From Candidatus Caribbeanibacter nitroreducens (GTDB taxonomy: Bacteria > Gemmatimonadota > Gemmatimonadetes > Palauibacterales > Palauibacteraceae), in contig CANPVF010000165.1 of assembly GCA_947581645.1 (NCBI GenBank), forward strand, positions 1-46,640: a stretch of DNA of 46,640 nucleotides. The letters run 5' to 3'. A program made the position numbers and the translations under genes. Below, piece after piece: positions 19,732-36,754 of the stretch; position 1 is the first letter of the stretch; each line of letters begins with the position of its first letter. Under the pieces are notes generated by a model. It ran no database searches. It was not told the origin of the DNA and saw nothing but the letters and a program-made list of their open reading frames with translations.

Positions 19732-21114
19732 ATGACATACGCCCGCAGTCGGCGCGCGGTGCCGCGCCTCGTTCTCCTCGCCCTCGGCCTGCTCTGTGCC
19801 CACGCCGTCCGTCCCGGACCCGCGGGGGCCGCGCAGGAGGCCGACAGCGTCTCCCCCGCTCCCCCGGACACCGTGGCGGCGGTCCCGGACTCGATCCTGG
19901 ACCGGCTGGACCGGCTGGAGGCGGAGGTCCGCACCCTGCGCTCGACCCTCGACAGCCTCGACGCCGCCGGGGCGGAGAGGGCGGCTCCGCCCGGCGACGC
20001 CCGGGCCGATCTCCGCGAGGCGGCCCGAGCGGCCGCGAAGGAGGCGGCGTCCGAGAGGCCGGACACCGGGGGCGGCGGGACCAGCCGCACCCGCAGCCTG
20101 CAGGCGCTGAACCCGGAGATCAGCGTCACCGGCGATTTCGTCGCCAGCGCCCTGGACCCGGGTGGTGCCGGCGACGAGGTGACGGCCACGCCCCGGGGCG
20201 TGGAGCTGTCGCTGCAGGCAGCCCTGGACCCCTACACCCGCATGAAGGTCTACGCCGTCCGGGAGGAGGAGCTGGAGATCGCGGGCCTCCCCCACGAGGA
20301 GGGCGAGGGGGGCGAGGAGGAGCACGCGGCCGGCGTCGACGTGGAGGAGGCGTACATGTACTGGGTGGGGCTCCCGGGGGGATTCGGGGCCCGGATCGGC
20401 AAGTTCCGCCAGGAGCTCGGCCTCTACAACCGCTGGCACACCCACGCCCTGTTCGAGGTGGACCGTCCCCTGGCGGCGACCACGTTCCTCGGCGAGGGGC
20501 TGATCCAGCCGGGCGTCGGCCTCACCCTCCCGTCCTTCGCGCTGGGCCCCGCCGGGCAGACCCTCACGCTGGAGGCGGCCCGTGCCGACAACACGCCCCT
20601 GTTCGGCGAGGAGGGCGACCTCAGCTACCTGGCGCGCTACCGGAGCTTCATCGACCTGGGCCCGGCCAGCTACCTCCAGGTCGGCGCCACCGGCGTCTAC
20701 GGCGAGAACGACGGGTCGGACCTCGAGTCGCGCCTGCTGGGCCTGGACCTCTCCTACCGGTGGCGACCGCCGTCGCGGGGCCGGTACCGGGACCTGCAGC
20801 TCAAGTCGGAGTGGTTCTTCGCCGAGCGGGAGACCGGCGCCCTCTCCGAGACCGGGCACGGCGGGTACCTCCAGGCCAACCTGCGGCTGGACCGGAGCTG
20901 GACGCTCGGCGCGCGGGGAGACTGGGTGGACGGCTACGGCGACGGGCCGGGGACCCTGCTGCAGCTCGCGCCGAGCGTGAGCTGGTGGCAGAGCGAGTGG
21001 GTGCGGCTCCGGCTCCAGTACAACTGGCTCCATCCCGACGTCGGGTCCGACGGTCACACGCTGCTCTTCCAGGTGGTCTGGGCTGCCGGTCCCCACAAGC
21101 ACGAGACGTACTGA
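19732..21114 (+). CDS. outer-membrane beta-barrel porin-like protein of the metal operon
   Basis: The 460-residue protein has a signal peptide (about 1-34, ending AGAAQ) and a predicted coiled-coil (LDRLDRLEAEVRTLRSTLDS, about 58-77). The barrel (about 125-460) has alternating aromatic/polar strands such as GGFGARIGKFRQELGLYN and YLQVGATGVYGENDG. It ends with Tyr rather than Phe (HKHETY). An acidic/His insert, EEGEGGEEEHAAG (about 187-199), could attract metal ions. GGAGG lies four bases before ATG 19732. It is one base from the binding-protein gene, so an outer-membrane entry route for the same metal is inferred. Confidence 0.83.
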   Translation: MTYARSRRAVPRLVLLALGLLCAHAVRPGPAGAAQEADSVSPAPPDTVAAVPDSILDRLDRLEAEVRTLRSTLDSLDAAGAERAAPPGDARADLREAARAAAKEAASERPDTGGGGTSRTRSLQALNPEISVTGDFVASALDPGGAGDEVTATPRGVELSLQAALDPYTRMKVYAVREEELEIAGLPHEEGEGGEEEHAAGVDVEEAYMYWVGLPGGFGARIGKFRQELGLYNRWHTHALFEVDRPLAATTFLGEGLIQPGVGLTLPSFALGPAGQTLTLEAARADNTPLFGEEGDLSYLARYRSFIDLGPASYLQVGATGVYGENDGSDLESRLLGLDLSYRWRPPSRGRYRDLQLKSEWFFAERETGALSETGHGGYLQANLRLDRSWTLGARGDWVDGYGDGPGTLLQLAPSVSWWQSEWVRLRLQYNWLHPDVGSDGHTLLFQVVWAAGPHKHETY

Positions 21115-21115
21115 G

Positions 21116-22228
21116 ATGAGACACGACACGAGACGGCACGCGCGTACTCCGATTCCACTCGTCTTCGTCCTGGCCGCGATGGTGGCGCTCCCGTCGGCGG
21201 TCCTCGGGTCCGTCGCCGGGCCCGCCGGGCCGCCGCACCAGGAGCAGGAGACGGTGCGGGTGGTGACGACGCTGCCCACCTACGCCGCCATCGCCCGGGA
21301 GATCACCGGCGACCTGGCCCGGGTGGAGGCCATCGCCCGCGGCGACGAGGATCCACACTTCGTCACCCCCCGTCCCAGCTTCGCCCGGGCCATCTCCCGG
21401 GCCGACCTGTTCGTCACGACGGGTCTCGACCTGGAAGTCTGGGTGCCGGGACTCCTGGACCGGGCCAACAACCCCCGGGTCCTGGAGGGGGCGCCCGGCC
21501 ACGTGGTGGCGTACTCGGGCGTCCGGCTGCTGGACGTCCCGGAGACCACCTCCCGCGCCGAGGGGGACATCCACATCTACGGCAACCCCCACGTCCACAC
21601 CGACCCGGTGAACGCCGTGCAGATCGCCCGCAACATCCTGGAGGGGCTCCGGAGGGTGGACCCGGACAACGCGGCCGGGTACGAACGGCGGACGCGGGAC
21701 TTCGAGGACCGCATCCTCGCCCGGACCTTCGGCGACCGGATGATCGACCTCCTGGGGCGGGAGAGCCTCCTGGAGCTGGCGCTGAACGGTCGGTTCTGGA
21801 GCTTCGTCGAGGGCCGGGAGATCGACGGCCGCCCGCTGGTGGACCAGCTCGGCGGCTGGCTCGCCGAGGCCGCGCCGTTCCGCGGACGCAGCCTGGCGTG
21901 CTACCACAAGAACTGGAGCTACTTCAGTCACCGCTTCCGGATCCCCTGCGCCATCTACGTGGAGGAGAAGCCCGGCGTGCCGCCGACGCCCGGCCAGGTG
22001 GGCCGCGTCATCACCTTTCTCCGGGACCAGGAGCTGCCGGTGCTCCTGGCCGCCAACTACTTCAGCCGCGGGCAGGTGAACCGGGTGGCGGAGCGCACCG
22101 GAGGGGTCGCCGTCATCGTGCCGGAGCACGTGGGCGGCGCCGAGGGCGTCGACACCTACTTCGACCTGGTCGACCTGTGGGTGAGCCGCCTCGCCGAAGC
22201 CTACTCCGGGTCCGGGGGCGCCCGATGA
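21116..22228 (+). CDS. ZnuA/TroA-like metal-binding protein of an ABC importer
   Basis: The 370-residue protein has a signal sequence (about 1-37) and the cluster A-I fold. It opens VRVVTTLPTYAAIAREITGD, and metal-ligand histidines are seen in EDPHFVTPRPS (about 80), GNPHVHTDPVNA (about 158-163) and ACYHKNWSYFSHRF (about 263). The long helix between lobes is DRMIDLLGRESLLELAL. The usual acidic fourth ligand after the linker is not obvious: the corresponding place reads AANYFSRGQVNRVAERTGG. Periplasmic capture of zinc, manganese or iron is expected. The stop overlaps the permease start as ATGA. Confidence 0.9.
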   Translation: MRHDTRRHARTPIPLVFVLAAMVALPSAVLGSVAGPAGPPHQEQETVRVVTTLPTYAAIAREITGDLARVEAIARGDEDPHFVTPRPSFARAISRADLFVTTGLDLEVWVPGLLDRANNPRVLEGAPGHVVAYSGVRLLDVPETTSRAEGDIHIYGNPHVHTDPVNAVQIARNILEGLRRVDPDNAAGYERRTRDFEDRILARTFGDRMIDLLGRESLLELALNGRFWSFVEGREIDGRPLVDQLGGWLAEAAPFRGRSLACYHKNWSYFSHRFRIPCAIYVEEKPGVPPTPGQVGRVITFLRDQELPVLLAANYFSRGQVNRVAERTGGVAVIVPEHVGGAEGVDTYFDLVDLWVSRLAEAYSGSGGAR

Positions 22229-23076
22229 TGGAGCTCATGCTCCCGGCCCTGGTGGCCTGCCTGGTGCTGGTGGGCATCCACGGCTACCTGGGCGTCCACA
22301 TCATCGCCCGGGGCGTCATCTTCGTGGACCTGGCCCTGGCCCAGGTGGCGGCCCTGGGATGGACCGCCGCGGGCTTCGGACCCGGGAGCTGGCTGGCCGG
22401 CGTCCTGGGTGTCTCCCCCGAGACCGCAGCCTACCTGGTGGGCCTCCTGGCCACCCTGATCGCCGCCGCCGTGTTCAGCGTCTCCCGGATCGACCACGAG
22501 CACATCACCCAGGAGGCCATCATCGGCATCGTCTACGTGGTCGCCTCGGCCGGGACGATCCTGCTGGCGGCGCAGGCGCCCCGCGGCTCCGAGCACGTGG
22601 AGGAGCTCCTCACCGGGACGCTGCTGTGGGTCACCTGGCCCACGGTGATGAAGACGGCCCTCCTGTACGCCGCCCTCGGCGTCGTCCACTGGCTGCTCCG
22701 GGACCGCTTCCTCACCATCTCGCTGGAGCCGGAGCGGGCCCGGCGGGAGGGTTGGGCGGTGCGGGCCTGGGACTTCCTCTTCTACGCCCTGTTCGGCGTC
22801 GTCGTCACGTCGTCGGTGGCCATCGCCGGGGTCCTGGTGGTGTTCAGCTTCCTCGTGATCCCGGCGGTCATCGCCTTCCTGTTCGTCCGCTCGCCCGGTC
22901 GCCTGCTGGCCGTGGCGTGGGTCACCGGCACGCTGGCGGCGGTGGCCGGCGTCCTGGCCTCCTACGGCACCGACCTGCCCACGGGCCCCCTCGTCGTCTC
23001 CTCCTTCGCGGCGGCGCTGCTCGTCGCCTTCGGCGTCCGGTGGGCGAGCGGGCGCCGGCCGGCCGGAACCGGGTGA
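22225..23076 (+). CDS. ZnuB-like permease subunit of a metal ABC importer
   Basis: The 283-residue protein has about eight hydrophobic helices and the ABC-3 family signatures GVHIIARGVIFVDLALAQVA and ITQEAIIGIVYVVASAGTIL. It also has GVVVTSSVAIAGVLVVFSFL. It should form the membrane channel for the upstream binding protein. ATG 22225 overlaps the upstream stop by four bases. The expected ATPase gene (ZnuC type) is not beside it: upstream is the binding protein and downstream, 65 bases away, the convergent antiporter. The ATPase must be encoded elsewhere, or the module is incomplete. Confidence 0.92.
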   Translation: MMELMLPALVACLVLVGIHGYLGVHIIARGVIFVDLALAQVAALGWTAAGFGPGSWLAGVLGVSPETAAYLVGLLATLIAAAVFSVSRIDHEHITQEAIIGIVYVVASAGTILLAAQAPRGSEHVEELLTGTLLWVTWPTVMKTALLYAALGVVHWLLRDRFLTISLEPERARREGWAVRAWDFLFYALFGVVVTSSVAIAGVLVVFSFLVIPAVIAFLFVRSPGRLLAVAWVTGTLAAVAGVLASYGTDLPTGPLVVSSFAAALLVAFGVRWASGRRPAGTG

Positions 23077-23141: not shown

Positions 23142-24551
23142 CTACAGCACCGCCCCCAGGATCCCGAAGCCCAGCGCGGCCACGGAGCCGGCGGTGAGGG
23201 CGTAGGGCAGCTGGGTCCGGACGTGCTCGATGTGGTCCGAGGCCGACGCCATGGAGGAGATGATCGTGGTGTCGCTGATCGGCGAGCAGTGGTCGCCGAA
23301 CACGCCGCCCGCCAGCGCCGCGGCGACGAAGGGCGGCAGCGAGACGGAGAGCGACCCGGCGATGGGGACCACCACCGGGAGCATGATGGCGAAGGTGCCC
23401 CAGCTCGACCCCATGGCGAAGGCGATGCCCCCGGAGGCCAGGAAGGCCATGGGGAGCAGCAGGTAGAGGGGGAGCGCCCCGCTCACGACGCCGGCCACGT
23501 ACTCGCCGGTGCCCATCTGCTGGGTGACGTCGCCCAGGGTGAGGGCGAGGAGCAGGACCAGCGCCATGCCGGTGAGACCGCTCGCCCCCTTGAGGCTGGA
23601 GTCGCTCAGCGTCTCCACCGAGAGGATTCGCTGGCCCAGGGCCAGCATCCACGCGGCGGCCAGCCCGGCCAGCACCGCCCAGAAGACGCTGGTGGTGCCG
23701 GACCCCTCGGCCAGGCTCCCGTCGCCGGTGATGAACATGGCCACCGGCATCATCACCACCATCACGATCACCGGGAGCAGCATGTTCAGGGCCCGATGGG
23801 GGATGCCGTCCGGCGGGGCCGGGGCGATCTCGTCCGGGTCGGCCATGGCGGAGGCGTGGTCCCAGTGGAGCTCACCCTCGGACGCCCGCTCCTCGGCGTC
23901 GGCCATGGGGCCCAGGTTCAGGCCCGTGGTGGCCGTGATCCCGGCCAGGACGACGGCGGCCAGGGCGTAGAAGTTCACCGGCACGCTGGCCACGAAGACG
24001 CCCACCGGGTTCTCCACACCCAGCCCGCCCAGCAGCCCCAGGACGTACGCTCCCCAGGCGTTGAAAGGGATGAGGATGCAGATGGGGGCGGAGGTGGAGT
24101 CGATGATGTACGCCAGCTTCTCGCGCGCCACGCGGAAGCGGTCGAAGAGGGGGCGCGAGACGGAGCCGGCGACGAGGATCGTGATGTTGGACTCGATGAA
24201 GATGACGAGCCCCACGATCCACGCGAGCACCTGGGCGCGCCGTCCCGTGGTCACCCACTCCCGGTTCTCCAGCCAGTCGACGAAGCCCCGGATTCCGCCG
24301 TTGGTGCGGACGACGGCGATGAGGGAGCCCATGGCGAAGGTGAACATCAGGACCCGGAGGTTGCCGGGCTCTCCCCCGACGGTGACCAGGGCCTCCACGG
24401 TGTCGGCGAAGCCCGCCGCCGGGTTCCATCCGGCGACGATCGTCCACCCCAGGAAGATGCCCGCGGCCAGGGAGAGGTAGACCTGGCGGCTGTAGATCGC
24501 CAGGCCGATGGCCAGGAGCGGCGGGAGCAGCGAGAGCGCGCCGAACTCTAT
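23142..24551 (-). CDS. nhaC: NhaC-family Na+/H+ antiporter (apparent ATA start)
   Basis: The 469-residue inner-membrane protein has about eleven hydrophobic helices. NhaC features include LSLLPPLLAIGLAI at the start, VGLVIFIESNITILVAGSVS, DSTSAPICILIPFNAWG, and ASGGIAFAMGSSWGTFAIM with GDHCSPISDTTI. It should exchange external protons for internal sodium. No ATG, GTG or TTG lies between the upstream in-frame stop (24626) and the conserved N-terminus. ATA at 24551, with GGGAGG six bases before it, is the best start. The first canonical start, GTG 24398, would delete two helices. The gene is two bases from a sequencing or mutation alternative (ATG to ATA). Confidence 0.9.
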   Translation of the reverse strand: MEFGALSLLPPLLAIGLAIYSRQVYLSLAAGIFLGWTIVAGWNPAAGFADTVEALVTVGGEPGNLRVLMFTFAMGSLIAVVRTNGGIRGFVDWLENREWVTTGRRAQVLAWIVGLVIFIESNITILVAGSVSRPLFDRFRVAREKLAYIIDSTSAPICILIPFNAWGAYVLGLLGGLGVENPVGVFVASVPVNFYALAAVVLAGITATTGLNLGPMADAEERASEGELHWDHASAMADPDEIAPAPPDGIPHRALNMLLPVIVMVVMMPVAMFITGDGSLAEGSGTTSVFWAVLAGLAAAWMLALGQRILSVETLSDSSLKGASGLTGMALVLLLALTLGDVTQQMGTGEYVAGVVSGALPLYLLLPMAFLASGGIAFAMGSSWGTFAIMLPVVVPIAGSLSVSLPPFVAAALAGGVFGDHCSPISDTTIISSMASASDHIEHVRTQLPYALTAGSVAALGFGILGAVL

Positions 24552-24623: not shown

Positions 24624-26759
24624 TCAGTCGCGGTCGCCCCCCGCCTCTCTCTCGCTCTGCCGCTCCGCGGCCCGGGCCTGGAGAACCGCCTCGGCCCGGT
24701 GCTTCGGCAGGAGGTTCTCCACCCTGCGCGGGTCCTCGTCGATCACCGACAGGGTGTCCTCTCCGAACTCGTCCACCAGCTTCTGCGCCGTCTTCTCCCC
24801 GACGCCGGAGTAGCGCTCCCTCATGTGCTGGACGATCTCGTCGGCGTCGGCGTCGGAGGTCGTTCGGGCGGGAGACTCGTCTCGAGCGGCCGCCGTGCCC
24901 CCCCGGTCCGTGGTGCCCGGGGCCCGCTCCGACTCGTCCGTGGCGGAGGGCTCCGGCTGCGGCTCCTCCTCGGCATCGTCCTCCTGCTCATCGCCGGAGC
25001 CGGTGCTCACCGGACCGGGCGTGGGCTCGCTCCCGGACTCGTCCTCCTTCTCCCCCTTTCCGCTCTTCCGCCCCCGGCGGAAGCGTCCGACGCCGCGCCG
25101 GCCTGACGCCCCGGAGTCCGACTCCTCGCGGCCGGACGTTCCGGACGTCGCGGGGGTCGAGCTCTTCGAACCGTCGTCGCCGCCGCCCGTGTCCACGGGT
25201 CCCGGCACCCAGGATTCGTCCCCGGATCCGGACTTCTCCTCCCCCTTGCTCTTCCGGCGGCGACGGAGGCCTCCCACCGGCTTCGTCGGCTCCGGGGGCT
25301 CCTCCTGCTCTTCCTCCGCCTGCTCCGTGTCCTCCGCACGGGGCTCCGGCTGCGGCTCGGGCTCCGGTTCGGGGGCGGGCTCCTCCCGGCGGGCCGCTTC
25401 CGGTTCCGGCTCGGGCTGTCGCTCTGGCTCTGGCTCTGGCTCCGGCTTCGACTCCGGCTCCGGCTGCGGTTCGCGCTCGGGAGCCGCCTGCTCGGCGCCG
25501 CCGACGGGCTGCAGGTAGTAGTTGCCGTCGGAGTCCTTGGTGATGTCCACGACCTCCTCGTCGTGGGCCTGGCGGATGAATCGGCTGAACTTGCTGAACC
25601 CGAGGGCTCCCTCGTCGAAGGACGAGTCCCGGTTCAGCATCTCCCGCTTCACCTCGGAGTCGCGGACCCGGCCCTCGTCGCCGGAGAGGTCCGCCACGAC
25701 CTCCTGCAGGAGGTCGTAGCCGGCCCGGAGCTGCTCGGCCTCGACCACCGGTCGGTCGCCCGCCGAGGCCGCGGTCGTCCGCTGACGGCTCTTCTTCCGG
25801 CCGCCTCCGTCGCCGTCGCCGGAGCGCTCCCGGTCGGGCGCGCCGCCCTCCTCGCTCAGGTCGCGGGGCGGGGGCGCTCCGCCGTCCTCCTTCTTCTTCT
25901 CCTTCTTCGCCTTCTTCTCCGGCTGCTTCTTCTCCCGCGTCTGTCTCGGCTCCCGGCCGCCGTCTCCGCCGGAGGGGGCCTCCACGTCGACGCTGGAGCC
26001 CGGCCCCACCTTGTACTGCCCGTTGCCGATCTTCTGCAGCCTGAGGATGCCGCGGGAGCTGGCCTCGGTGAGGAAGCGGTTGAACTTGCTGTACCCGATC
26101 TCCTTCTCGTCGAAGCTCGGGTCCAGCTCCAGCATCACCTGCTTCAGGCGGTCGGAGCGCATGACGTCGTCTCGCTCCACCATCTTCTTGATCGAGTGCT
26201 CCGTCAGCTCCCAGGGGTCGTGCCGCTTCGTGTCCATCTCGTCGGCCGTCACGAGCCCGGAGAGGCTGTCGTAGCTGTAGTACTCGTCGCAGTTCTGGAC
26301 CAGCAGGTCGGAGCTCGACTCCTGCATGCCGACGCCGATCACGTATTTCCCGTACTCCTTGAGCTTGAGCACGAGGCTCGAGAAGTCGGAGTCGCCGGAC
26401 AGCAGGATGAAGGTCCCGATCTCCGGCCGGGTGAAGACCAGCTCCAGGGCGTCGATGGCCAGCCGGATGTCGGTGGCGTTCTTCTTCGAGGAGCCGTAGG
26501 CCGGGGCGTAGATCAGGTCGATGGCCGCCTCGGAGAGGGGCACCACGTACTGCGGGTAGCGGCGCCAGTCGGCGTAGGCCCGCTGGACCGAGACCTTGCC
26601 CCGGATGATGTCGGAGTTGAGAAGCTGACGGAGCTCCTGGCCCAGGTTGGACCGGATCCCCATCGTCACGTTGTCGAAGTCGATCAGGAGCGCCGCGTTC
26701 GGCGACGGAGCGCTGCTCCGGTCGGTGTGGTGCGGCGCGCGTGTGAATTGCTCGTTCAT
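24624..26759 (-). CDS. NYN-domain protein with two LOTUS/OST-HTH domains and C-terminal HhH
   Basis: The 711-residue protein starts with a NYN/PIN-like nuclease fold. Acidic residues sit at Asp27/Asp29 (LLIDFDNV), Asp97 (NATDIRLAID) and Asp123/Asp125 (LLSGDSDFSSLV). Two LOTUS-like winged helices follow (about 180-255, with DEKEIGYSKFNRFLTEASS, and about 335-420, with DEGALGFSKFSRFIRQA). A long acidic Pro-Glu-rich low-complexity region spans about 425-630. The C-terminus has a helix-hairpin-helix (SGVGEKTAQKLVDEFG, near 650). In other organisms NYN plus LOTUS proteins act on RNA, and RNA cleavage or binding is inferred here. ATG 26759 has GAGAGGAAC directly before it. Confidence 0.88.
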   Translation of the reverse strand: MNEQFTRAPHHTDRSSAPSPNAALLIDFDNVTMGIRSNLGQELRQLLNSDIIRGKVSVQRAYADWRRYPQYVVPLSEAAIDLIYAPAYGSSKKNATDIRLAIDALELVFTRPEIGTFILLSGDSDFSSLVLKLKEYGKYVIGVGMQESSSDLLVQNCDEYYSYDSLSGLVTADEMDTKRHDPWELTEHSIKKMVERDDVMRSDRLKQVMLELDPSFDEKEIGYSKFNRFLTEASSRGILRLQKIGNGQYKVGPGSSVDVEAPSGGDGGREPRQTREKKQPEKKAKKEKKKEDGGAPPPRDLSEEGGAPDRERSGDGDGGGRKKSRQRTTAASAGDRPVVEAEQLRAGYDLLQEVVADLSGDEGRVRDSEVKREMLNRDSSFDEGALGFSKFSRFIRQAHDEEVVDITKDSDGNYYLQPVGGAEQAAPEREPQPEPESKPEPEPEPERQPEPEPEAARREEPAPEPEPEPQPEPRAEDTEQAEEEQEEPPEPTKPVGGLRRRRKSKGEEKSGSGDESWVPGPVDTGGGDDGSKSSTPATSGTSGREESDSGASGRRGVGRFRRGRKSGKGEKEDESGSEPTPGPVSTGSGDEQEDDAEEEPQPEPSATDESERAPGTTDRGGTAAARDESPARTTSDADADEIVQHMRERYSGVGEKTAQKLVDEFGEDTLSVIDEDPRRVENLLPKHRAEAVLQARAAERQSEREAGGDRD
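25330..25490. repeat. hexamer-type degenerate repeat coding for Pro-Glu tract
   Basis: Within the NYN/LOTUS gene the plus strand shows repeated GGCTCC/TGGCTC-like hexamers. On the coding strand they give runs of Pro-Glu dipeptides (PEPEPEPE). Such repeats are prone to length change by slippage. The shadow frame on the other strand encodes Gly-Ser repeats and is not a gene. Confidence 0.7.
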
Positions 26760-26874: not shown

Positions 26875-28455
26875 TCAGTCTATCTCTTCTTCTTCCTGTC
26901 GAACCGTCTGCGCCAGTTCCTGGCGCCGGGTCTTGCCCCCGGGCGTCCGGGGAAGCTCGTCGAAAAATCGGACGAGATCCGGGACCTTGTAGTCCGCCAG
27001 TGCGGACTCGCAGTACTCCCGGAGCTCCTCCTCGCTCACGATGGCCCCTTCCACGGTGTGCACGCAGGCGCAGACCAGCTCGCCGAGCACTTCCTCGGGC
27101 ACGCCCACGACCACGGCATCCAGGACCGCGGGATGCGAGCGGAGGTGATCCTCGACCTCGCGGGGGTGGACGTTGTAGCCGCCCCGGAGGATGACGTCGC
27201 TCTTCCGACCGACCACCCGGAGATAACCGTCCTCGTCCCGAATCGCCAGGTCCCCCGTGCGGAAGAAGCCGTCCTCCGTGAAGGAGGCGGCGGTCTCCCC
27301 GGGCTGCCGGAAGTACCCCAGCATGACGTTGTAGCCCCGGACGCCGATCTCGCCGGTCTCGCCGCGAGGCAGCGCCTCTCCCTGCTCGTCCAGCACCCGG
27401 ACCTCCACACCCTCCAGGGGTCGGCCCACCGTCGTGCTCCGGCGCTCCTCGTCGTCCGAGGGGCGGGTGATGCTCACCGTGGGCGAGGTCTCGGTCAGAC
27501 CGTAGGCGATCTCGAGGTCCGGCGCCATCTCCTCCCGGGCCCGGCGAATGAGCGCTTCGTCCACCGGGGCCCCGGCGACGATGCCCGTCCGGAGCGCGTC
27601 CAGGTCCCGCTCCTCGAGATCCGGCTCGCGCAGGGCCATCACGAACATCGTCGGAACGCCATGGAACACTGTTACCCGGTGTCTCTCCATGAGTTCGAGG
27701 GCCCCGGCGGCGTCGAATCGCTCCTGCAGCACCAGGGAGGAGCCGGAGCAGAGCACCGTGAACAGCGTCGCGCCGAAGCCGAAGATGTGGAAGAGGGGGA
27801 CGGAGCACAGGGTCCGGTCCCCGGGCTCCAGGGAGAGAGCCCCCGCGGTGCGCCGCGCCGTTCGGACCAGGTTGCCGTGGCTCAGGACGACGCCCTTGGG
27901 CTTCCCCGTCGTCCCGGGCGTGTACAGGATGCCGAACCGCTCGTCCGCGTCCGTCTCCGCCGGGCTCCAGGACCGGCCGCGGCCGCTGGAGATCAGGTCC
28001 TCGAACTGGAAGATCCGGTCGTCGTACCAGAGGTCCTCCTCGCCCACGGTCACCAGGTACTGCAGGGCGGGCAGCTCCACCAGGAGCTTCTCGAACAGCT
28101 GCAGGTAGTCCGTGCCCCGATGCTGCTCCGGCGTGACGGCCACCGTGGCCTCGGAGTTCCGGAGCATGAACTGGAGCTCGCGGGAGGTATAGCCCGGGTT
28201 CAGCGGGACCACCACGGCGCCGAGCTCCGCGGCGGCCAGGGTCACCACCACGGCCTCGGGCCAGTTGGGCAGGTCCACCGCGATCCGGTCGCCGGGCTCC
28301 ACGCCCAGGCCCGCCAGGGCCACCGCCAGGTTCGTGGCCTCGTCCAGCGTCTCGGCGTAGCTCCACGACCGGTCGCCGGCGACGAGGAACGTCTCGTCGC
28401 CGCGGCGGTCTGCCTGGCGCCGCAGGACTCCGGCGGCGGTGAGGGGATCGCTCAT
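26875..28455 (-). CDS. acyl-CoA synthetase (AMP-forming, medium/long chain or aryl acid)
   Basis: The 526-residue ANL-family enzyme has the P-loop YTPGTTGKPKGVVLSH, where the usual Ser is Pro. It also has IAYGLTETSPTVSI, TGDLAIRDEDGYLRVVGRKSD, and the catalytic lysine in PGGKTRRQEL near the C-terminus. The length and RGGYNVHPREVEDHL segment fit the FadD/MenE-like group acting on free fatty or aromatic acids. It is a second, distinct ligase from the one at 12909-14834. The ATG at 28455 begins MSDPLTAAGVLRRQ. It follows aroB on the same strand after a 72-base gap; whether they share a transcript is unclear. Confidence 0.9.
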   Translation of the reverse strand: MSDPLTAAGVLRRQADRRGDETFLVAGDRSWSYAETLDEATNLAVALAGLGVEPGDRIAVDLPNWPEAVVVTLAAAELGAVVVPLNPGYTSRELQFMLRNSEATVAVTPEQHRGTDYLQLFEKLLVELPALQYLVTVGEEDLWYDDRIFQFEDLISSGRGRSWSPAETDADERFGILYTPGTTGKPKGVVLSHGNLVRTARRTAGALSLEPGDRTLCSVPLFHIFGFGATLFTVLCSGSSLVLQERFDAAGALELMERHRVTVFHGVPTMFVMALREPDLEERDLDALRTGIVAGAPVDEALIRRAREEMAPDLEIAYGLTETSPTVSITRPSDDEERRSTTVGRPLEGVEVRVLDEQGEALPRGETGEIGVRGYNVMLGYFRQPGETAASFTEDGFFRTGDLAIRDEDGYLRVVGRKSDVILRGGYNVHPREVEDHLRSHPAVLDAVVVGVPEEVLGELVCACVHTVEGAIVSEEELREYCESALADYKVPDLVRFFDELPRTPGGKTRRQELAQTVRQEEEEID

Positions 28456-28527: not shown

Positions 28528-29691
28528 CTAATCTGTCGAAGGCTGCTCCGACCGTAAAGCACGGGGAAGCCAGGACAGGAGCCGGTCCTCGTCGACCGGG
28601 TGGGTCCACGCCCGCCCGTCCGCCCGGCTCACGTTTCCGATGTTCTCGAGCAAGACCAGTCGGACCCCGCCCTCCCGGGCTTTCTTGTCCCGGCGCGCCG
28701 CCTCCAGCACCTCGCGGGGGTCGTGCCGCTCCAGGGGCCAGGGCGGGATGCCGCAGGCCTCCAGCAGCGACCGGAGGCGATCGGCGGTGCCCGGGCGGGT
28801 GACCCCCGTCTCCTCGCCCCGGCGGGCCTCCAGGACCATGCCCGCCGCCACCGCCTCGCCGTGGAGACCGGAGAGACCGGCGGTGGACTCCAGGGCGTGA
28901 CCCAGGGTGTGGCCGAAGTTCAGAATCTGCCGCCGGCCGGCCTCCTCCGGGTCCCGGGCCACCACGTCGGCCTTGATGGCCACGGCCCGGCGCACGAGCT
29001 CCGTCGTCGGCCCGATCTCGCCGGCGGCCAGGGCCCCGGCCCGCTCCTCCATCCACGCGAAGAGCTCGCCGTCGGCGATGGCCGCCGCCTTCACGGCCTC
29101 GGCCAGGCCGGCGCGCAGGTGCCGCCGGTCCAGGGTGGCGAGGACCTCCGGGTCGACGAGCACGTGCTCCGGGTGGTGGAAGGCCCCGACCAGGTTCTTG
29201 CCGGCCGGCGTGTTCACGCCCGTCTTCCCGCCCACCGAGCTGTCCAGCATGGCCAGCAGGGAGGTGGGGACCTGAACCACGGGCACGCCCCGCATGTAGG
29301 TGGCGGCCACGAAGCCGGCCAGGTCGCCGGTGACCCCGCCGCCCAGGGCCACCACGGCCGCGTCGCGGCTCAGGCCGGCCTCGAGCATCCGGTCGGTGAG
29401 GCGTCCCCACCGCTCCCGGCTCTTGCTGGCCTCGCCCTCGGGAAACGTGAAGAGCTCGGCCGGCTGCCCCGCTCCCTCCAGGGAGCGCAGGGCCCGCTCC
29501 GCGTAGTGGTCGGCCACGCGCTCGTCCGCGACCACGGCGTACCGGTGGGCTCCCACCGCGCGGCGGCAGCGCGGGCCCAGATCGTCCAGGGCTCCGGGGC
29601 GGACCTCGACGCGGTAGCCGCCGGCGCCGGTGTCCGGCACGGGCACGAGGAGCCCCTCGCCCTCCGCCGGATCGGTGCCCTCCCCGCTCAC
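28528..29691 (-). CDS. aroB: 3-dehydroquinate synthase
   Basis: The 387-residue protein is AroB. The NAD-binding region has ALGGGVTGDLAGFVAATYMRG, followed by the active-site PTSLLAMLDSSVGGKTGVN and KNLVGAFHHP. Metal ligands lie in RAGLAEAVK and in the ILNFGHTLGHALE motif. It catalyses the second step of the shikimate pathway from DAHP. GTG 29691 begins only four bases after the stop of the HExxH lipoprotein gene, so it is probably translated from that message. No other shikimate gene is in the window. Confidence 0.95.
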   Translation of the reverse strand: MSGEGTDPAEGEGLLVPVPDTGAGGYRVEVRPGALDDLGPRCRRAVGAHRYAVVADERVADHYAERALRSLEGAGQPAELFTFPEGEASKSRERWGRLTDRMLEAGLSRDAAVVALGGGVTGDLAGFVAATYMRGVPVVQVPTSLLAMLDSSVGGKTGVNTPAGKNLVGAFHHPEHVLVDPEVLATLDRRHLRAGLAEAVKAAAIADGELFAWMEERAGALAAGEIGPTTELVRRAVAIKADVVARDPEEAGRRQILNFGHTLGHALESTAGLSGLHGEAVAAGMVLEARRGEETGVTRPGTADRLRSLLEACGIPPWPLERHDPREVLEAARRDKKAREGGVRLVLLENIGNVSRADGRAWTHPVDEDRLLSWLPRALRSEQPSTD

Positions 29692-29695
29692 CGGC

Positions 29696-31120
29696 TCACG
29701 GGCCGCCTGCCGCCGGCTCTCCGCCGGTCCCGCCTCCCGACAGCCGAACCTCTGCCGCCGGGGCCAGCACGCCGGCGTCCACCTCCGTCGGCCGGTCCAC
29801 GACCCTCACCAGGGGACGCCCCCCGGCGTCGAGCCGCTCCACGGTCACCGCCCGGCCGGCGGCGCCGGGCTCCCCGCCGTAGCGGGCCCGGAGGGCGCGA
29901 CGGGCGGCGGACGCGAACTCCTCCGCCTCCGCGGGCTCGTCCCACACGCTGGTCCACAGCAGGGCCTCGCTCCCGTCGGACCGGAGCAGGCGCAGCCGGT
30001 CGCCGTCCCAGCCGGCGGCCGCCGAGCGCGCCTCACTCTCGTCGCCCAGGTGGACCGACAGGAAGACGCGCGTTTCCAGCTCGCCCAGGCTGTTGGCGTA
30101 GGCCTCGGTCCACCCGTCGGGAGACGCGGAGGGGAACGCGACCTCCGTGGGAGCGTCCGGACTCGGCCCCAGGGCCCGCTCGGGGTGGATCACCTGCTCC
30201 GTGGAGGCCGGCAGCCGGGGACCGAACGGGGCCGGTCGCCCGTCCGTCTCCCGCCACAGCGCCTGCATGTAGCCGAGCCCGCCCACGTAGGGAAACGTCA
30301 GGGTCTCCCGGATGATCCTGGGGGCGGAGCCGAAGGTGGGCATGCTCTCCGGCGCTCCCTCCGTGGCGATCTCGCCGAACTTCTCGGCGATGCCGGGCAT
30401 GGTGGTCAGGTCGACGTCGGAGCCGGTGGTCTCGGCCAACGTCCACTCGGCCATGACCAGCGTGGCCTGACCCTCGATGGCCGCCCGTGCGGCGTTGCTG
30501 GCGTCGTTCTGCTCCCGCAGGGAGGACGTCAGGCTGTCCAGGTCCAGGTGCTGGTCCTGGAGCGCGTGGACCAGCTCGTGCACCAGCACCGTGCGGGCCT
30601 CCGCCGGCGGCACGTCCTCCAGCACGAAGAGGGTGTCGGCCTCCGGGTCGTAGTACCCCACCACCTGCTCCATGTACAGCTTCCGGAGCAGACCCTCCAG
30701 CTGGAGCGTGTCCGGCAGGAGCCCCAGACGGGAGTACGTGCCCCCCAGGGCCTCGGCCTTCTCCGGCGGGAGCTGCTCGGCCAGCTCGTCCTCCAGGAAC
30801 GCCTCGAGCTGGGCGCGGCTGCGCCGGGCCAGACGGGGGGGATGGCGGGCCTCCAGGCCGCTGCGTCGCTCGAGCTCGGGCACCAGGGCCCGGGCCAGGC
30901 TGTCCAGGGACGAGCTCCCGGCCTCCGGCCCCGACCCCGCCGGGGTGGAGGTCTCCGCCCCGTCCTCGCGGGCCGTCTCGCCGGCGTCACCGACCGCCCC
31001 GCAGGCCACCGTGGCCGCGGCGACCAGCACCGCCGCCAGCGTCCGAAGTCGGTCCACGGCCCGCGCCGGCCGCCCGAACCGACCTTTCCACTCGCCGTGC
31101 ACATCTGATCTCATCGTCAC
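29696..31120 (-). CDS. putative lipoprotein with gluzincin-like HExxH motif
   Basis: The 474-residue protein has an export signal with lipobox VACG (Cys about 40) and then an Ala/Gly/Ser-rich linker. HELVHALQDQHLDLD (about residues 181-195) is an HExxH motif. About 30 residues later AIEGQATLVMAEW supplies a conserved glutamate of the gluzincin type, so a zinc-dependent peptidase fold is likely. Substrate and activity are unproven. Two in-frame starts, GTG 31120 and ATG 31114, lie together; GGGAGGGG is ten bases before the first. It is upstream of aroB with a 4-base gap. Confidence 0.82.
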   Translation of the reverse strand: MTMRSDVHGEWKGRFGRPARAVDRLRTLAAVLVAAATVACGAVGDAGETAREDGAETSTPAGSGPEAGSSSLDSLARALVPELERRSGLEARHPPRLARRSRAQLEAFLEDELAEQLPPEKAEALGGTYSRLGLLPDTLQLEGLLRKLYMEQVVGYYDPEADTLFVLEDVPPAEARTVLVHELVHALQDQHLDLDSLTSSLREQNDASNAARAAIEGQATLVMAEWTLAETTGSDVDLTTMPGIAEKFGEIATEGAPESMPTFGSAPRIIRETLTFPYVGGLGYMQALWRETDGRPAPFGPRLPASTEQVIHPERALGPSPDAPTEVAFPSASPDGWTEAYANSLGELETRVFLSVHLGDESEARSAAAGWDGDRLRLLRSDGSEALLWTSVWDEPAEAEEFASAARRALRARYGGEPGAAGRAVTVERLDAGGRPLVRVVDRPTEVDAGVLAPAAEVRLSGGGTGGEPAAGGP

Positions 31121-31834: not shown

Positions 31835-33490
31835 CTACTGCTTCTTGTTCGGGCGCAGGCCCTGCCTGCCGTCCGGCGCCATCTTCTGAATTCGCTCCAG
31901 CATCTTCAGGTCGTTCTCGATTCTCCTGTCGACGCTGGCGGCATCGTTCCACTGGACGGAGGGAGCGGCGCCTCCGGCCTCGCCTCCGAAGGTGTAGATC
32001 TCCTTCTGGAGCACCTCCAGCTCGGAGCCCGGCACCGGCATGTGAATGGGCGTTCCGCTCACCAGCGCACCCCAGCCACGGTCGTGCGCCCAGGCCAGAC
32101 CGGCCGAGACCTGGAAGACCTCGACGCCCCACTCGTACTGGAGAGCGTCCATCAGATCGCCGCAGGACCCGTCGGCGTTCTGCGGCACGCAGGAGTTGGA
32201 ATCCGGCACGCCGTTGGCCGTCACCTCGGGCAGTCCGCCGTTGGCGGTGCGGGTCTGGTTGATGATGTCCGCCGCCTGCCCGGGACTGCCCGTGCGCATG
32301 AGCGCCTCCGCCTTCAGCAGGTTCATCTCGGTCACGGTCATCTCGGGGACCATGCCCGTCCAGCAGAAGTTGCAGGAGAAGGCGTACGCCGCGTACCGCG
32401 TGTCCACGTAATGGGACCGGTGGTACGTCCCCCGCACCGGCGGGTGCGGAATGGCGTCCAGGTACTGGAAGTACCCGCCCGTGGCCGAGTCCGAGGGAGC
32501 CGGGAAGCGCTGATCCGGCGTCTGGATGTCGATGGGCGTCCTGTCGGCCACGGGCGTCGACATCCGGGTCTCGTACGCCCCGGAGGTGTCGGCCGGCCCG
32601 ATCTGGCGGTAGTCCACGCGGGACCAGCCGGGGTAGTTGGAACCGAGCGTCTTGATGCCGGACCACCAGCCGTCGGAGGCCGCCCCGTCGACCATCAGGT
32701 CGCTCTGGATGCCCTGATCCACGTGGTCGATCACGCCCTGCCAGTCCACGTTCGCCCGCTCGTCGGGCGACCTGGCCACCGCGGCCATGAAGCGCGCCCG
32801 GTAGGAGTGGGCGATCCGCGCCAGCTCGGAGCTGCTCCGCTCGGCACCGTTGATCCACGGCGAGGCGGGCAGCGTGAAGGTGTTGTTCTCGGAGAGCTGG
32901 ATCGCCTGGTCCAGGTAGCTCAGGGCCTGGTTCATCACCTCGCCGTAGGGGCGGAGCTCCGGCGTGCCCTCGGTGAGGTTCACCGTCTCGTCCACGATGG
33001 CCGCCTGGTCGTAGATCATGGCCAGGAAGCCGTGGCAGACGCCCTGTACGAAGCGTCCGAAGGCACGGGCTCTCGTCTCGTTGTCCAGGCTCACCTCACC
33101 CTCGATGGCCTTGAAGCCGTCGGAGACGGCGGCCAGGGCTGCGTAGCAGCCGGTCCAGGCGAACTCGTTGGAGAAGGCGTAGGTGAAGGACGGACTGTTG
33201 TTGAAGGCGTCACGCGGCTCGGACCCCTGGGAGCGCATGGCGAAGTTGCCCCACGAGGAGGTGGTCTGGTCGGCCATGACGCTGAGCATGTTCCCCGGCG
33301 AGTACTGCTGCGCCGGCTGGAAGTAGCTCTTGTAGGAGCTCGCGATCAGCGACTCCACGTCCCCGGCCGTGGCCAGCGCCCGGTCGGCGTCCGGCTCGTT
33401 CGGGTTGTTGACGTCGAGGTCGTCGCAGGCGCCCAGGAGCAGTGCTGCCCCTGCGACGCCGGCGACGGCCATCGTTCGTAGAGTTCTCAT
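31835..33490 (-). CDS. susD: SusD/RagB-like nutrient-binding outer-membrane lipoprotein
   Basis: The protein is about 551 residues with signal peptide and lipobox LLLGAC (Cys22). SusD-type helical features appear as VESLIASSYKSYFQPAQQYS and in the C-terminal part PGQAADIINQTRTANGGLP and WAHDRGWGALVSG. It sits on the cell surface as lid for the SusC channel encoded 72 bases upstream. ATG 33490 (MRTLRTMAVAG) is chosen; an earlier GTG at 33514 adds eight hydrophilic residues. No polysaccharide-degrading enzyme, regulator or sulfatase gene is near, so the ligand, glycan or peptide, is unknown. Confidence 0.92.
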   Translation of the reverse strand: MRTLRTMAVAGVAGAALLLGACDDLDVNNPNEPDADRALATAGDVESLIASSYKSYFQPAQQYSPGNMLSVMADQTTSSWGNFAMRSQGSEPRDAFNNSPSFTYAFSNEFAWTGCYAALAAVSDGFKAIEGEVSLDNETRARAFGRFVQGVCHGFLAMIYDQAAIVDETVNLTEGTPELRPYGEVMNQALSYLDQAIQLSENNTFTLPASPWINGAERSSSELARIAHSYRARFMAAVARSPDERANVDWQGVIDHVDQGIQSDLMVDGAASDGWWSGIKTLGSNYPGWSRVDYRQIGPADTSGAYETRMSTPVADRTPIDIQTPDQRFPAPSDSATGGYFQYLDAIPHPPVRGTYHRSHYVDTRYAAYAFSCNFCWTGMVPEMTVTEMNLLKAEALMRTGSPGQAADIINQTRTANGGLPEVTANGVPDSNSCVPQNADGSCGDLMDALQYEWGVEVFQVSAGLAWAHDRGWGALVSGTPIHMPVPGSELEVLQKEIYTFGGEAGGAAPSVQWNDAASVDRRIENDLKMLERIQKMAPDGRQGLRPNKKQ

Positions 33491-33562
33491 GTTTATGTCC
33501 CGTTCGTTATTCACTGCGTCGTGGTCTCCGGGCGAGCGAGATCGTCGGGCGCTCGCTCCCGA

Positions 33563-36500
33563 TCAGAAGACCACCTCGACTCCCGCGGTGAGCGTGCGGT
33601 AGTTCGGGTAGTTGAAGTCGTCGAAGCGGTTGACCGCGGACGAGCCGGCCTGACCGCCGCCCTGGCCCACCTCGGGGTCGAAGCCCGTGTAGTCGGTCCA
33701 GGTGAAGACGTTGCGCCCGATGAGGTTCAGGCTCAGGCGCTCGACGTTGCCCCCGAACGCGCTCTGCAGGAAGCTGCCCGGGAAGCTGTAGGTGATGCTC
33801 AGCTCCCTGAGCTTCAGGTACGAGCCGTCCTCGACGAACTCGCTGTTGGACGAGTTGGTGTCGTAGAGCGTGGCGTAGTAGCCGATGGGCTTCTTGAGAC
33901 CCTCGGGCTTGCCCGTCTGGTCCAGGAAGCCGTGCCGGCGCTCACGGTAGCCCCACTGCCGGGTCAGGTTATAGACGTCGTTCCCGACGGTGGCGTCGAA
34001 GAGGCCGTAGACGCTGAAGTTGTTCCAGTTGATCGAGTTCGACCAGCTGACCGTGAACTCGGGCTGGGTGTTCCCGATGGAGAGGAACTCCTCCTGCTCC
34101 CCGTCACCGTCGGTGTCCTCCACGGCGCGGACCGGCATGCCCCAGCTGTAGTCGTTGCCGTTCACGGTGCCGGCCGTGCCCCAGAGATCGTTGGCGAGGC
34201 CGTCGCGGTAGGAGTTGCCCTCCCCGACCCAGACGAGGTAGCCGTCGTCGTTCACCTCGAACTGGCTGCAGGAGGTGCCCTCCGGCAGGCCGTCGCAACT
34301 GGTCGCCCAGCGCGTGCCGTAGAAGGTCCCGAAGACCTCACCCTCGCGGTTGTAGAAGCGGTTCTCGGGCCCCCACCTGTACGGCGGCCGGTTGAAATCG
34401 GTGATCTTCTGGGTGGTGCGGGAGCCGGTGACCGACGTCCTCCAGCTGAACTCGGAGGTCTGGACCGGCGTGGCCTCGAGGCTGGCCTCCCAGGTCTTCG
34501 CCTCGAGTGTGCCGGCGTTCTGCCACTGACTGGTGAAGCCGGCGAAGGCCGGAAGCGGCACGTCCAGGATCTGGTCCTCGGTCTCGGACCGCGCGTGCAC
34601 CACTTCCAGGGCCACCTTGTCGAACAGCGTCATGTTGACGCCGTACTCCTGCTCCTTCGAGAACTCGGGCTTCAGGTTCTTGTTCCCGAGGTTGCTCGGG
34701 GAGACGCTTCCGCCCGATCCCACGCTGTACGTCTCGTACTGGGCGTAGTAGTTGGGTCGACCGCCGGCAGTGCCGTAGGACGCGCGGAGCTTGAAGTTCG
34801 TGATGGCGTCCTCGAACGGCCACCAGTTCTCCTCGGAGACGAGGTAGGCGCCGCTTCCGCGGTAGTAGGTCTGCCACCGCTCCTCGGGCCCGAAGAGGGA
34901 GCTCCCGTCACGCCGGACCAGGAGGTCGACGATGTACTTCCCGTCGTACTCCCAGTTGGAGATCAGGAAGTAGCCGTGGGAGACGATCTCCCGCGTCTCG
35001 TCTTCGATCGCGAAGTTGTCCGTCAGGGTGCCCAGCGAGGGCGTCTGCTCGACGGCGAAGTTGTTCCCGCTGGCGAAGACCTGGTCGAAGTTCTGGTCCT
35101 CGTACAGGTAGCGGACCCGGGTCCTCGTCACGAAGTCGCCCAGGGACTTGTTGATGCCCGCCGTGACGCTGGCGTTGATCGCCTCGTCCGTCCAGTTGTT
35201 GCGGGCCAGCTCGCCGGGCGTCGTGCCGTCGATGTCCTTGTAGCCCTTCGGCAGCAGCTCGGAGCGGCGACGGTGCGTCCGGTCGTAGCTGAAGTTCCCG
35301 TCGACGTTGAACCAGCTGGTGGGCGACCAGGTGAACTGGCCGTTCCCCATCACCCGCTGGCGCTTGTTGATGAATTCGGCGTTGCGGACGATGTAGATCG
35401 GGTTCGGCTCGTTGGAGAGCGGATCGGGCTGGATCACCAGCGACCCGTCCGCGGCCTCCTCCAGCAGGTTCGCCTTCGGCGACATGAAGGTGAGCGAGAA
35501 GAGCGGATTCGTCGGCGTACTCGTGATGTCGTCCTGCTCGGACGAGGAGTAGAACCCGCTCATCTGGAAGTCGAACTCCTGCGAGGGGCTCGAGCCGACG
35601 TTCAGGCGGACGTTCTTCCGGTCGTATCCGCCCGTGTTCTTGATGACCCCGTCCTCGCTGAAGTTCTCGGCGGAGGCCCGGAAGTTGGTCTCCCCGAAGC
35701 GACCGGAGGCGGCCAGGTACGTGGTGATCGTGTTACCGGGATCGAAGAATCGATCCAGGTTGTCGAAGGTCTCTCCCGGCCACGGGTTGTCGGCGAAGAC
35801 CTGCGCCTCGCTCGGACCGTCCAGGACGAGGCCGCTGCCGTACTCGATGTCGTTGCCTGCCCCGTCCACGAACGAGTTCCCCGACTCGTTCATGGCGTAG
35901 TAGTGGTGGTCCAGCAGAGGAATCTCGTTCGGCAACTGGTTGGTGCCGTACTCCTGCCGGACGGTCAGGTCGAAGCTCCCCTCGTCCATCTCGGCGCCGC
36001 TCCTGGTCGTGATCTGCACGACACCGTTGGCGGCACGCGAGCCGTACATGGACGCGGCCGCGGCCCCCTTGACCACCTCGATGTTCTTGATGTCCTGGCT
36101 GTTGATGTCGGACAGGGTGGCGTTGTCCGACTGGATCACGCCGTCGATCACGATGAGGGGGCCCTGCGTCCGTCCGGACGCGTTGATGCTGGTGGCTCCC
36201 CGCAGCTGGATCGACGCCTCTTCGCCGGGGAGTCCGGAGCCCTGGACGATCTGGGCGCCGGCCACGCGACCCTGGAGCATGGACGAGACGTTGTTCGAGG
36301 ACGTCTCGACCTCGTCGAAGCTCACCTGGTCCACGCTGAAGGGCAGCTTGGCCTGGGGCGTCTCACCGGCGACTCCCGTGACGACGACCTCCTGCAGCTT
36401 CAGCGCCGTCTGCGACAGCTGGAAGTCGGCGGTGGATGCCTGACCCGCGGAGACGTTCACCGTCCGCGAGGCCGTCTGGTAACCGATCAGACGGACCCGG

Positions 36501-36754
36501 ACGGTCTGCTGGCCGGTGGGGACTCCCTCCAGCCGATAGCTCCCGTCCTGGGAAGTGAGCGTCCCGAGGTTGGTGCCCCGGATGAAGACCTGCGCGCCGG
36601 AGATGGGCTCTCCATTCCCGGCGTCGGTCACGGTGCCCGTCACGGCACCCTGCTGTGCGGAAGCGGGGGACGCTCCGAAGAGGAGCCAGGCGGCGGCGAC
36701 TACCGCACCCAGCCCGAATCCACGGCTTCGTCCCCGAAGTAGCGACGAAATCAT
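33563..36754 (-). CDS. susC: SusC/RagA-like TonB-linked outer-membrane receptor
   Basis: The 1063-residue protein has a signal peptide (about 1-34, ending SASAQ). It continues with a carboxypeptidase-like regulatory domain (GAVTGTVTDAGNGEPISGAQ, about 36-110). The plug follows (LKLQEVVVTG TonB box-like, then IQLRGATSINASG and IKNIEVVKGAAAASMYGSRA), then a long beta-barrel ending AGVEVVF. It imports bulky substrates with TonB energy. ATG 36754 has AGGAGG seven bases upstream. The 248-base region before it contains a direct repeat, CTGAAGGC, near 36846-36868, but no clear regulator site. SusD is downstream. Confidence 0.96.
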   Translation of the reverse strand: MISSLLRGRSRGFGLGAVVAAAWLLFGASPASAQQGAVTGTVTDAGNGEPISGAQVFIRGTNLGTLTSQDGSYRLEGVPTGQQTVRVRLIGYQTASRTVNVSAGQASTADFQLSQTALKLQEVVVTGVAGETPQAKLPFSVDQVSFDEVETSSNNVSSMLQGRVAGAQIVQGSGLPGEEASIQLRGATSINASGRTQGPLIVIDGVIQSDNATLSDINSQDIKNIEVVKGAAAASMYGSRAANGVVQITTRSGAEMDEGSFDLTVRQEYGTNQLPNEIPLLDHHYYAMNESGNSFVDGAGNDIEYGSGLVLDGPSEAQVFADNPWPGETFDNLDRFFDPGNTITTYLAASGRFGETNFRASAENFSEDGVIKNTGGYDRKNVRLNVGSSPSQEFDFQMSGFYSSSEQDDITSTPTNPLFSLTFMSPKANLLEEAADGSLVIQPDPLSNEPNPIYIVRNAEFINKRQRVMGNGQFTWSPTSWFNVDGNFSYDRTHRRRSELLPKGYKDIDGTTPGELARNNWTDEAINASVTAGINKSLGDFVTRTRVRYLYEDQNFDQVFASGNNFAVEQTPSLGTLTDNFAIEDETREIVSHGYFLISNWEYDGKYIVDLLVRRDGSSLFGPEERWQTYYRGSGAYLVSEENWWPFEDAITNFKLRASYGTAGGRPNYYAQYETYSVGSGGSVSPSNLGNKNLKPEFSKEQEYGVNMTLFDKVALEVVHARSETEDQILDVPLPAFAGFTSQWQNAGTLEAKTWEASLEATPVQTSEFSWRTSVTGSRTTQKITDFNRPPYRWGPENRFYNREGEVFGTFYGTRWATSCDGLPEGTSCSQFEVNDDGYLVWVGEGNSYRDGLANDLWGTAGTVNGNDYSWGMPVRAVEDTDGDGEQEEFLSIGNTQPEFTVSWSNSINWNNFSVYGLFDATVGNDVYNLTRQWGYRERRHGFLDQTGKPEGLKKPIGYYATLYDTNSSNSEFVEDGSYLKLRELSITYSFPGSFLQSAFGGNVERLSLNLIGRNVFTWTDYTGFDPEVGQGGGQAGSSAVNRFDDFNYPNYRTLTAGVEVVF

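Follow-up and report, generated by a model that had tools for sequence, protein, structure and literature searches.

Fusions of an N-terminal NYN domain (LK-nuclease/DUF88) with one or two OST-HTH domains were described in 2010 as a stereotypic bacterial architecture and predicted to be stand-alone RNases, without a conserved link to RNA-processing genes in the wider bacterial family and with no mention of a helix-hairpin-helix (HhH) in the text (Anantharaman, Zhang, Aravind 2010, PMC2848206). The NYN domain of human MARF1 is a Mn-dependent single-stranded RNA endonuclease whose acidic pocket is required (PMC6294520), and LOTUS domains, including bacterial ones, are reported to bind G4 RNA (Ding 2020, as related in PMC12247748). 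By sequence profile, the nearest bacterial structures of NYN and LOTUS domains are VPA0982 (2qip), NE0665 (2kpm) and CV_0373 (2kzv), all isolated domains of uncharacterised proteins, and no structure of an NYN-LOTUS-LOTUS-HhH arrangement has been solved. No functional study of a bacterial NYN-LOTUS protein was found in the literature searched, and a full-text search, which mostly did not extend to subscription papers, returned no combination of NYN with HhH.

The window analysed here comprises positions 1 to 46,640 of contig CANPVF010000165.1 from Candidatus Caribbeanibacter nitroreducens (Gemmatimonadota). Judged by its sequence, the 711-residue protein that it encodes belongs to the known bacterial NYN plus OST-HTH kind, having the N-terminal NYN domain followed by OST-HTH domains and, like the proteins of 2010, no linked RNA-processing gene. 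A preliminary description of this DNA had called the bacterial role of the architecture not established, which holds for the function, while the architecture itself dates from the 2010 work. In contrast to the proteins described then, a C-terminal HhH of the RecD2 type is attached through a low-complexity linker, the gene is near-core in one phylum, the NYN domain is exceptionally conserved and the synteny is stable; new here are the near-core status, an NYN domain as conserved as EF-Tu, an HhH fusion that is restricted to, and retained in, a single clade, and the conserved synteny. The protein is probably a chromosomal housekeeping metal-dependent endoribonuclease of Gemmatimonadota, in which the LOTUS domains would choose the RNA and the HhH would add a duplex contact.

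MARF1/limkain b1 of animals resembles the protein in its NYN fold (TM up to 0.80), acidic active site and possession of several LOTUS domains, whereas the bacterial protein has two LOTUS domains against eight in human, an extra HhH and no decapping partners, and the NYN domains are 15-17% identical in the structure alignment. An orthologue of MARF1 was rejected, as the protein is bacterial and the Pfam scan found no RRM.

NYN active site and LOTUS domains

The open reading frame (Table 1) starts with ATG and has a GAGAGG-like ribosome-binding site immediately 5'. The GC content of the window is 65-75%, and Rfam gave no matches between positions 20000 and 32000.

Table 1. Coordinates of the protein, its parts and its conserved neighbours in the window
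Feature	Position	Strand	Evidence
NYN-LOTUS-LOTUS-linker-HhH protein, whole ORF, 711 aa	24624..26759	-	ORF reading and phylum homologues
NYN nuclease domain (LK-nuclease/DUF88-type, PIN-like), residues 22-165	26265..26696	-	Pfam 7.7e-26, AF2, Foldseek, invariant residues
LOTUS/OST-HTH domain 1, residues 182-254	25998..26216	-	AF2 pLDDT mostly >90; profile matches to 2kpm/2kzv
Low-complexity linker 1, K/R/G/E-rich	25740..25997	-	pLDDT about 30-50; composition
LOTUS/OST-HTH domain 2, residues 341-418	25506..25739	-	Pfam OST-HTH best stretch 353-414; AF2 pLDDT >90; kinship to LOTUS1
Low-complexity linker 2, residues 419-635	24855..25505	-	AF2 disorder; composition
C-terminal HhH domain, RecD2 type, residues 636-705, GVGEKTAQ hairpin	24645..24854	-	AF2, TIGR01448, PDB XPF (HhH)2
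AMP-binding (acyl-CoA ligase-like) enzyme, upstream neighbour	26875..28455	-	Pfam; adjacent in 53/68 eligible loci
3-dehydroquinate synthase (aroB), upstream neighbour	28528..29691	-	Pfam; in 69/81 loci
Na+/H+ antiporter-family protein, downstream neighbour	23142..24398	-	Pfam; in 53/81 loci

Residues 22-163 matched the NYN family (PF01936) with 91.8 bits against a curated cutoff of 24.2. The NYN domain was modelled poorly in the full-length AF2 prediction owing to the near-identity of the aligned NYN sequences, so distant NYN proteins were added to the alignment for the final model, in which pLDDT was mostly 62-96 for the domain and 82 on average over residues 1-256. The top Foldseek matches of this model included 2qip (7e-9) and the MARF1 NYN domain (TMt 0.76-0.80), and 2qip was also found at 1e-26 by a profile search of PDB sequences. 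The model, the structural matches and the residue invariance together describe a PIN-like fold with a conserved acidic centre.

Of five aspartates named earlier for a check of conservation, Asp27, Asp97, Asp123 and Asp125 occurred in 87 of 87 members of the family, and Asp29 was replaced by Glu in the Caballeronia and Eleftheria homologues. Loss of the acidic residues was looked for in the homologues, and the catalytic acids were kept in all 87. The same four aspartates, together with Asn30, Lys93 and Asp103, remained invariant when viral, LabA-like and other distant NYN proteins at 17-29% identity were aligned with the family. By analogy with characterised NYN enzymes, metal-dependent RNA cleavage would be expected of the 711-residue protein, the four invariant aspartates binding a divalent metal at the site where RNA is cut.

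Other NYN proteins of the phylum, such as the LabA-like L117 and the proteins L119-L124 of family f11, share the NYN fold and the core acids, differing in that no LOTUS or HhH was detected in them and in their 17-23% identity to the window protein. The LabA-like protein (L117:1038-1817) is a second NYN protein with a cold-shock-like tail, recognised by eye, and lies close to recA in genome G029 (recA at G029:C150:16005-16970).

The OST-HTH model (PF12872) matched in two stretches with 51.1 bits against a cutoff of 23.8, the better of which reached 1.2e-13. The two units are 30% identical over 71 residues (E 5e-13 for a single comparison) and have in common the motif (I/L)G(Y/F)SKF(N/S)RF(L/I), which bears out the earlier recognition of two related winged-helix units. 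A fold unlike LOTUS was looked for at both units; they were modelled at residues 182-253 and 341-418 of the full-length prediction and matched the LOTUS domains of TDRD7 and TDRD5 (TMt 0.75-0.77), and the first also matched the bacterial LOTUS NMR structures 2kpm (9e-9) and 2kzv (8e-7) in the profile search of PDB sequences. The LOTUS domains would be the part that selects RNA, the best precedent being structured or G-rich RNA. Given the high GC content of the window and the reported binding of G4 RNA by LOTUS domains, G-rich RNA is a plausible ligand here.

Disordered linkers and a RecD2-type HhH in one clade

Both linkers were disordered in the full-length model. The tract of 200 Pro and Glu residues described previously proved to be a strong tract of about 74 residues (419-492; 25284-25505; 28% P, 35% E) within a low-complexity stretch of roughly 220, and imperfect 6/18-bp DNA repeats occur inside this linker at 25341-25469. 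Low-complexity regions are present in nearly all family members, and the first linker is R/G-rich in most homologues. Of 78 homologues, 20 have an acidic second linker and 19 a basic one, and in some the linker is as short as 22-26 residues; since charge and length vary in this way, low complexity is conserved and acidity is not. An acidic linker as a functional spacer was accordingly rejected as a conserved property, and the idea that it separates the nuclease from the HhH does not hold generally. Flexible and, in most relatives, rich in R/G, the linkers may let the domains act over distance.

The prevalence of low-complexity regions would also suit an RNA-binding scaffold, one that organises RNA-protein bodies through its LOTUS domains and R/G-rich disordered regions and cuts RNA little or not at all, and animal LOTUS proteins are described as organisers of germ granules (PMC8331183). 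Such a scaffold is very unlikely, however, since length, charge and composition change freely in the disordered parts, whereas the nuclease domain is by far the slowest-evolving part and retains every catalytic acid.

The C-terminal helix-hairpin-helix noted earlier is well founded. The unit has four helices (pLDDT about 97; helices at 636-649 and 655-675) and a GVGEKTA hairpin, with the GhG hairpin and two flanking helices of the HhH superfamily. The HhH of 15 of 16 homologues matched TIGR01448 at profile positions of about 75-133, the N-terminal HhH region of RecD2 (best 2.8e-9; window protein 4.9e-8), and HHH_5 matched in 13 of 16 (best 4e-7). The protein was rejected as a RecD2 helicase, because it scored 27.1 bits against an equivalog cutoff of 500, matched in the HhH alone and lacks a helicase domain. 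After RecD2, the PDB match was the (HhH)2 of XPF (6e-5), and a weak similarity to the C-terminal fold of 5'-3' exonucleases was also seen (0.0027). By comparison with these proteins, the HhH ligand would be duplex nucleic acid, most simply DNA. As a domain partner new to the architecture, the fused RecD2-type HhH predicts DNA or duplex contact, through which the nuclease of this one clade may act near nucleoid-associated or nascent RNA.

Among 91 genomes, the HhH was found in the NYN proteins of families f1, f3, f6 and f8, to which direct reading of the loci added f2, and the NYN proteins of families f5, f7 and f10 were without it; the other HhH matches in f7 and f11 belong to ORFs of 741-768 residues, whose size suggests RecD2 itself. 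In a tree of NYN plus LOTUS1, every HhH-bearing row fell in one clade (support 94/97), and the genuinely HhH-less proteins L028, L115, L029, L101, L116 and L118 fell outside it. Loss of the HhH in L016, L046, L056, L057 and L068 was rejected, as these ORFs reach the contig end and are truncated, and the domain was kept in every untruncated clade member examined. Since the tree was rooted with long-branch outgroups, a single gain of the HhH is favoured rather than settled, the alternative being one loss on the other side of the root.

Distribution and constraint in Gemmatimonadota

With NYN plus LOTUS1 as the query, the protein was detected in 362 of 395 Gemmatimonadota genomes, 272 of the 286 of good quality, and 127 of 138 genera. 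About 8% of the genomes had no detected copy, some of them incomplete assemblies, and certain families, f4 among them, seem to be genuinely without the gene. Genomes of f11, which is outside the class, were not among the matches listed and encode a different NYN protein. Apart from a few metagenome-assembled genomes labelled Gammaproteobacteria or BD2-11, the named relatives in the genome collection belong to Gemmatimonadota; three contigs labelled Gammaproteobacteria (L070, L076, L099) carry the Gemmatimonadota NYN protein and are probably mislabelled bins. An NYN gene split between two distant places of the single-contig genome G010 (L111, L112) was rejected, as both parts end in unknown bases, and the split is probably a scaffold misjoin or assembly artefact.

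Mean pairwise identity across 41 loci was 0.90 for NYN, 0.66 and 0.51 for the two LOTUS domains, 0.51 for the HhH and 0.50 for the neighbouring AroB. As these loci had been chosen by similarity to the NYN-LOTUS protein itself, RecA and EF-Tu were used as an independent control in matched genomes, limited to those with both loci recovered and with non-independent pairs. The effect was large: NYN exceeded RecA (0.867 versus 0.797, higher in 85 of 91 genome pairs) and equalled EF-Tu (0.844 versus 0.836, 28 pairs). The first, second and third codon positions of the NYN region differ at 12, 5 and 42%, and the excess at third over second positions indicates that the constraint acts on the protein.

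A constraint close to that of EF-Tu speaks against involvement in an arms race and in favour of a substrate or partner that hardly varies. The comparison suggests, for instance, a stable RNA or the ribosome, and the extreme conservation of NYN is in itself a clue that whatever it acts on is probably nearly invariant. Together with the near-ubiquity in one phylum, it suggests that NYN-LOTUS proteins can have a housekeeping function and not just an accessory one. A defence or conflict RNase, antiphage or toxin-like, is in keeping with the occurrence of NYN and OST-HTH domains in some conflict and immunity proteins (PMC8195603) and with distant NYN-LOTUS proteins on plasmids and phages, but is extremely improbable for a near-core gene syntenic with aroB and metabolic genes, with so slowly evolving an NYN domain. 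The PADLOC defence-system models gave 0 matches, no antitoxin-like partner gene was found, and every homologue on a plasmid or phage falls short of 60% identity.

The same constraint allows a more specific form of the endoribonuclease reading, in which a lineage-specific core RNase under EF-Tu-level constraint acts on an RNA that hardly varies (stable RNA, ribosome-bound RNA or R-loops) and is tethered to DNA in one clade by the captured RecD2-type HhH. This form is rather unlikely; if true, it would tie RNA processing to the nucleoid, a kind of connection undescribed for bacteria.

Neighbourhood and the case for an RNase

The conserved neighbours are listed in Table 1. A methylpurine-DNA glycosylase gene (PF02245; 3-methyladenine DNA glycosylase) is the commonest downstream neighbour of the NYN gene, to which it is immediately adjacent in 48 of 63 eligible loci (e.g. 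L112:3819-4457), and is absent from the matching position in the window. Genes for EtfB/EtfA and MoeA-like proteins, named by reading the sequence, are also found downstream, and no RNA-processing partner gene was seen in the conserved neighbourhood.

This glycosylase and the RecD2- and XPF-like HhH, with its weak exonuclease similarity, are what would be expected of a PIN/FEN-like structure-specific nuclease or R-loop processor recruited by the HhH to duplex DNA and working alongside base-excision repair. They count against the endoribonuclease reading, in that the commonest downstream neighbour is a DNA-repair gene and the HhH resembles those of DNA enzymes. A nuclease acting on DNA or hybrids is nevertheless unlikely, given that the nearest NYN structures include an RNase, the LOTUS precedents are RNA binders, the remaining neighbourhood is unrelated metabolism, and the window is without the glycosylase. 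As the glycosylase also adjoins HhH-less NYN proteins (L114, L115, L116, L118), the two are not linked, and the glycosylase was rejected as the partner of the HhH.

The source genome and its relatives encode RNase E/G, RNase Y and RNase P RNA, so the NYN-LOTUS protein would add to a normal RNase set, and a stand-in for a missing RNase was rejected. This also counts against the endoribonuclease reading, as no missing activity points to it. An RNase or RNA-decay role, which we infer, remains the best-supported guess, with RNA cleavage, the class of substrate, the ligand of the HhH and the cellular role all as predictions.

Further observations concern the surrounding genes. A 474-residue lipoprotein-like ORF (29696-31120, minus strand) with a VHELVHALQD (HExxH) motif gave no Pfam match at 1e-5 and is a conserved feature of 34 of 81 loci, some 4.5 kb upstream of the NYN gene; it possibly represents an undescribed metallopeptidase family. 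By reading of the sequence, a zinc-uptake-like set of an outer-membrane protein, a ZnuA-like binding protein and a ZnuB-like permease lies at 19732-23076 (plus strand), and a SusD-like and TonB-receptor-like pair lies upstream of the syntenic block at 31835-36754 (minus strand).
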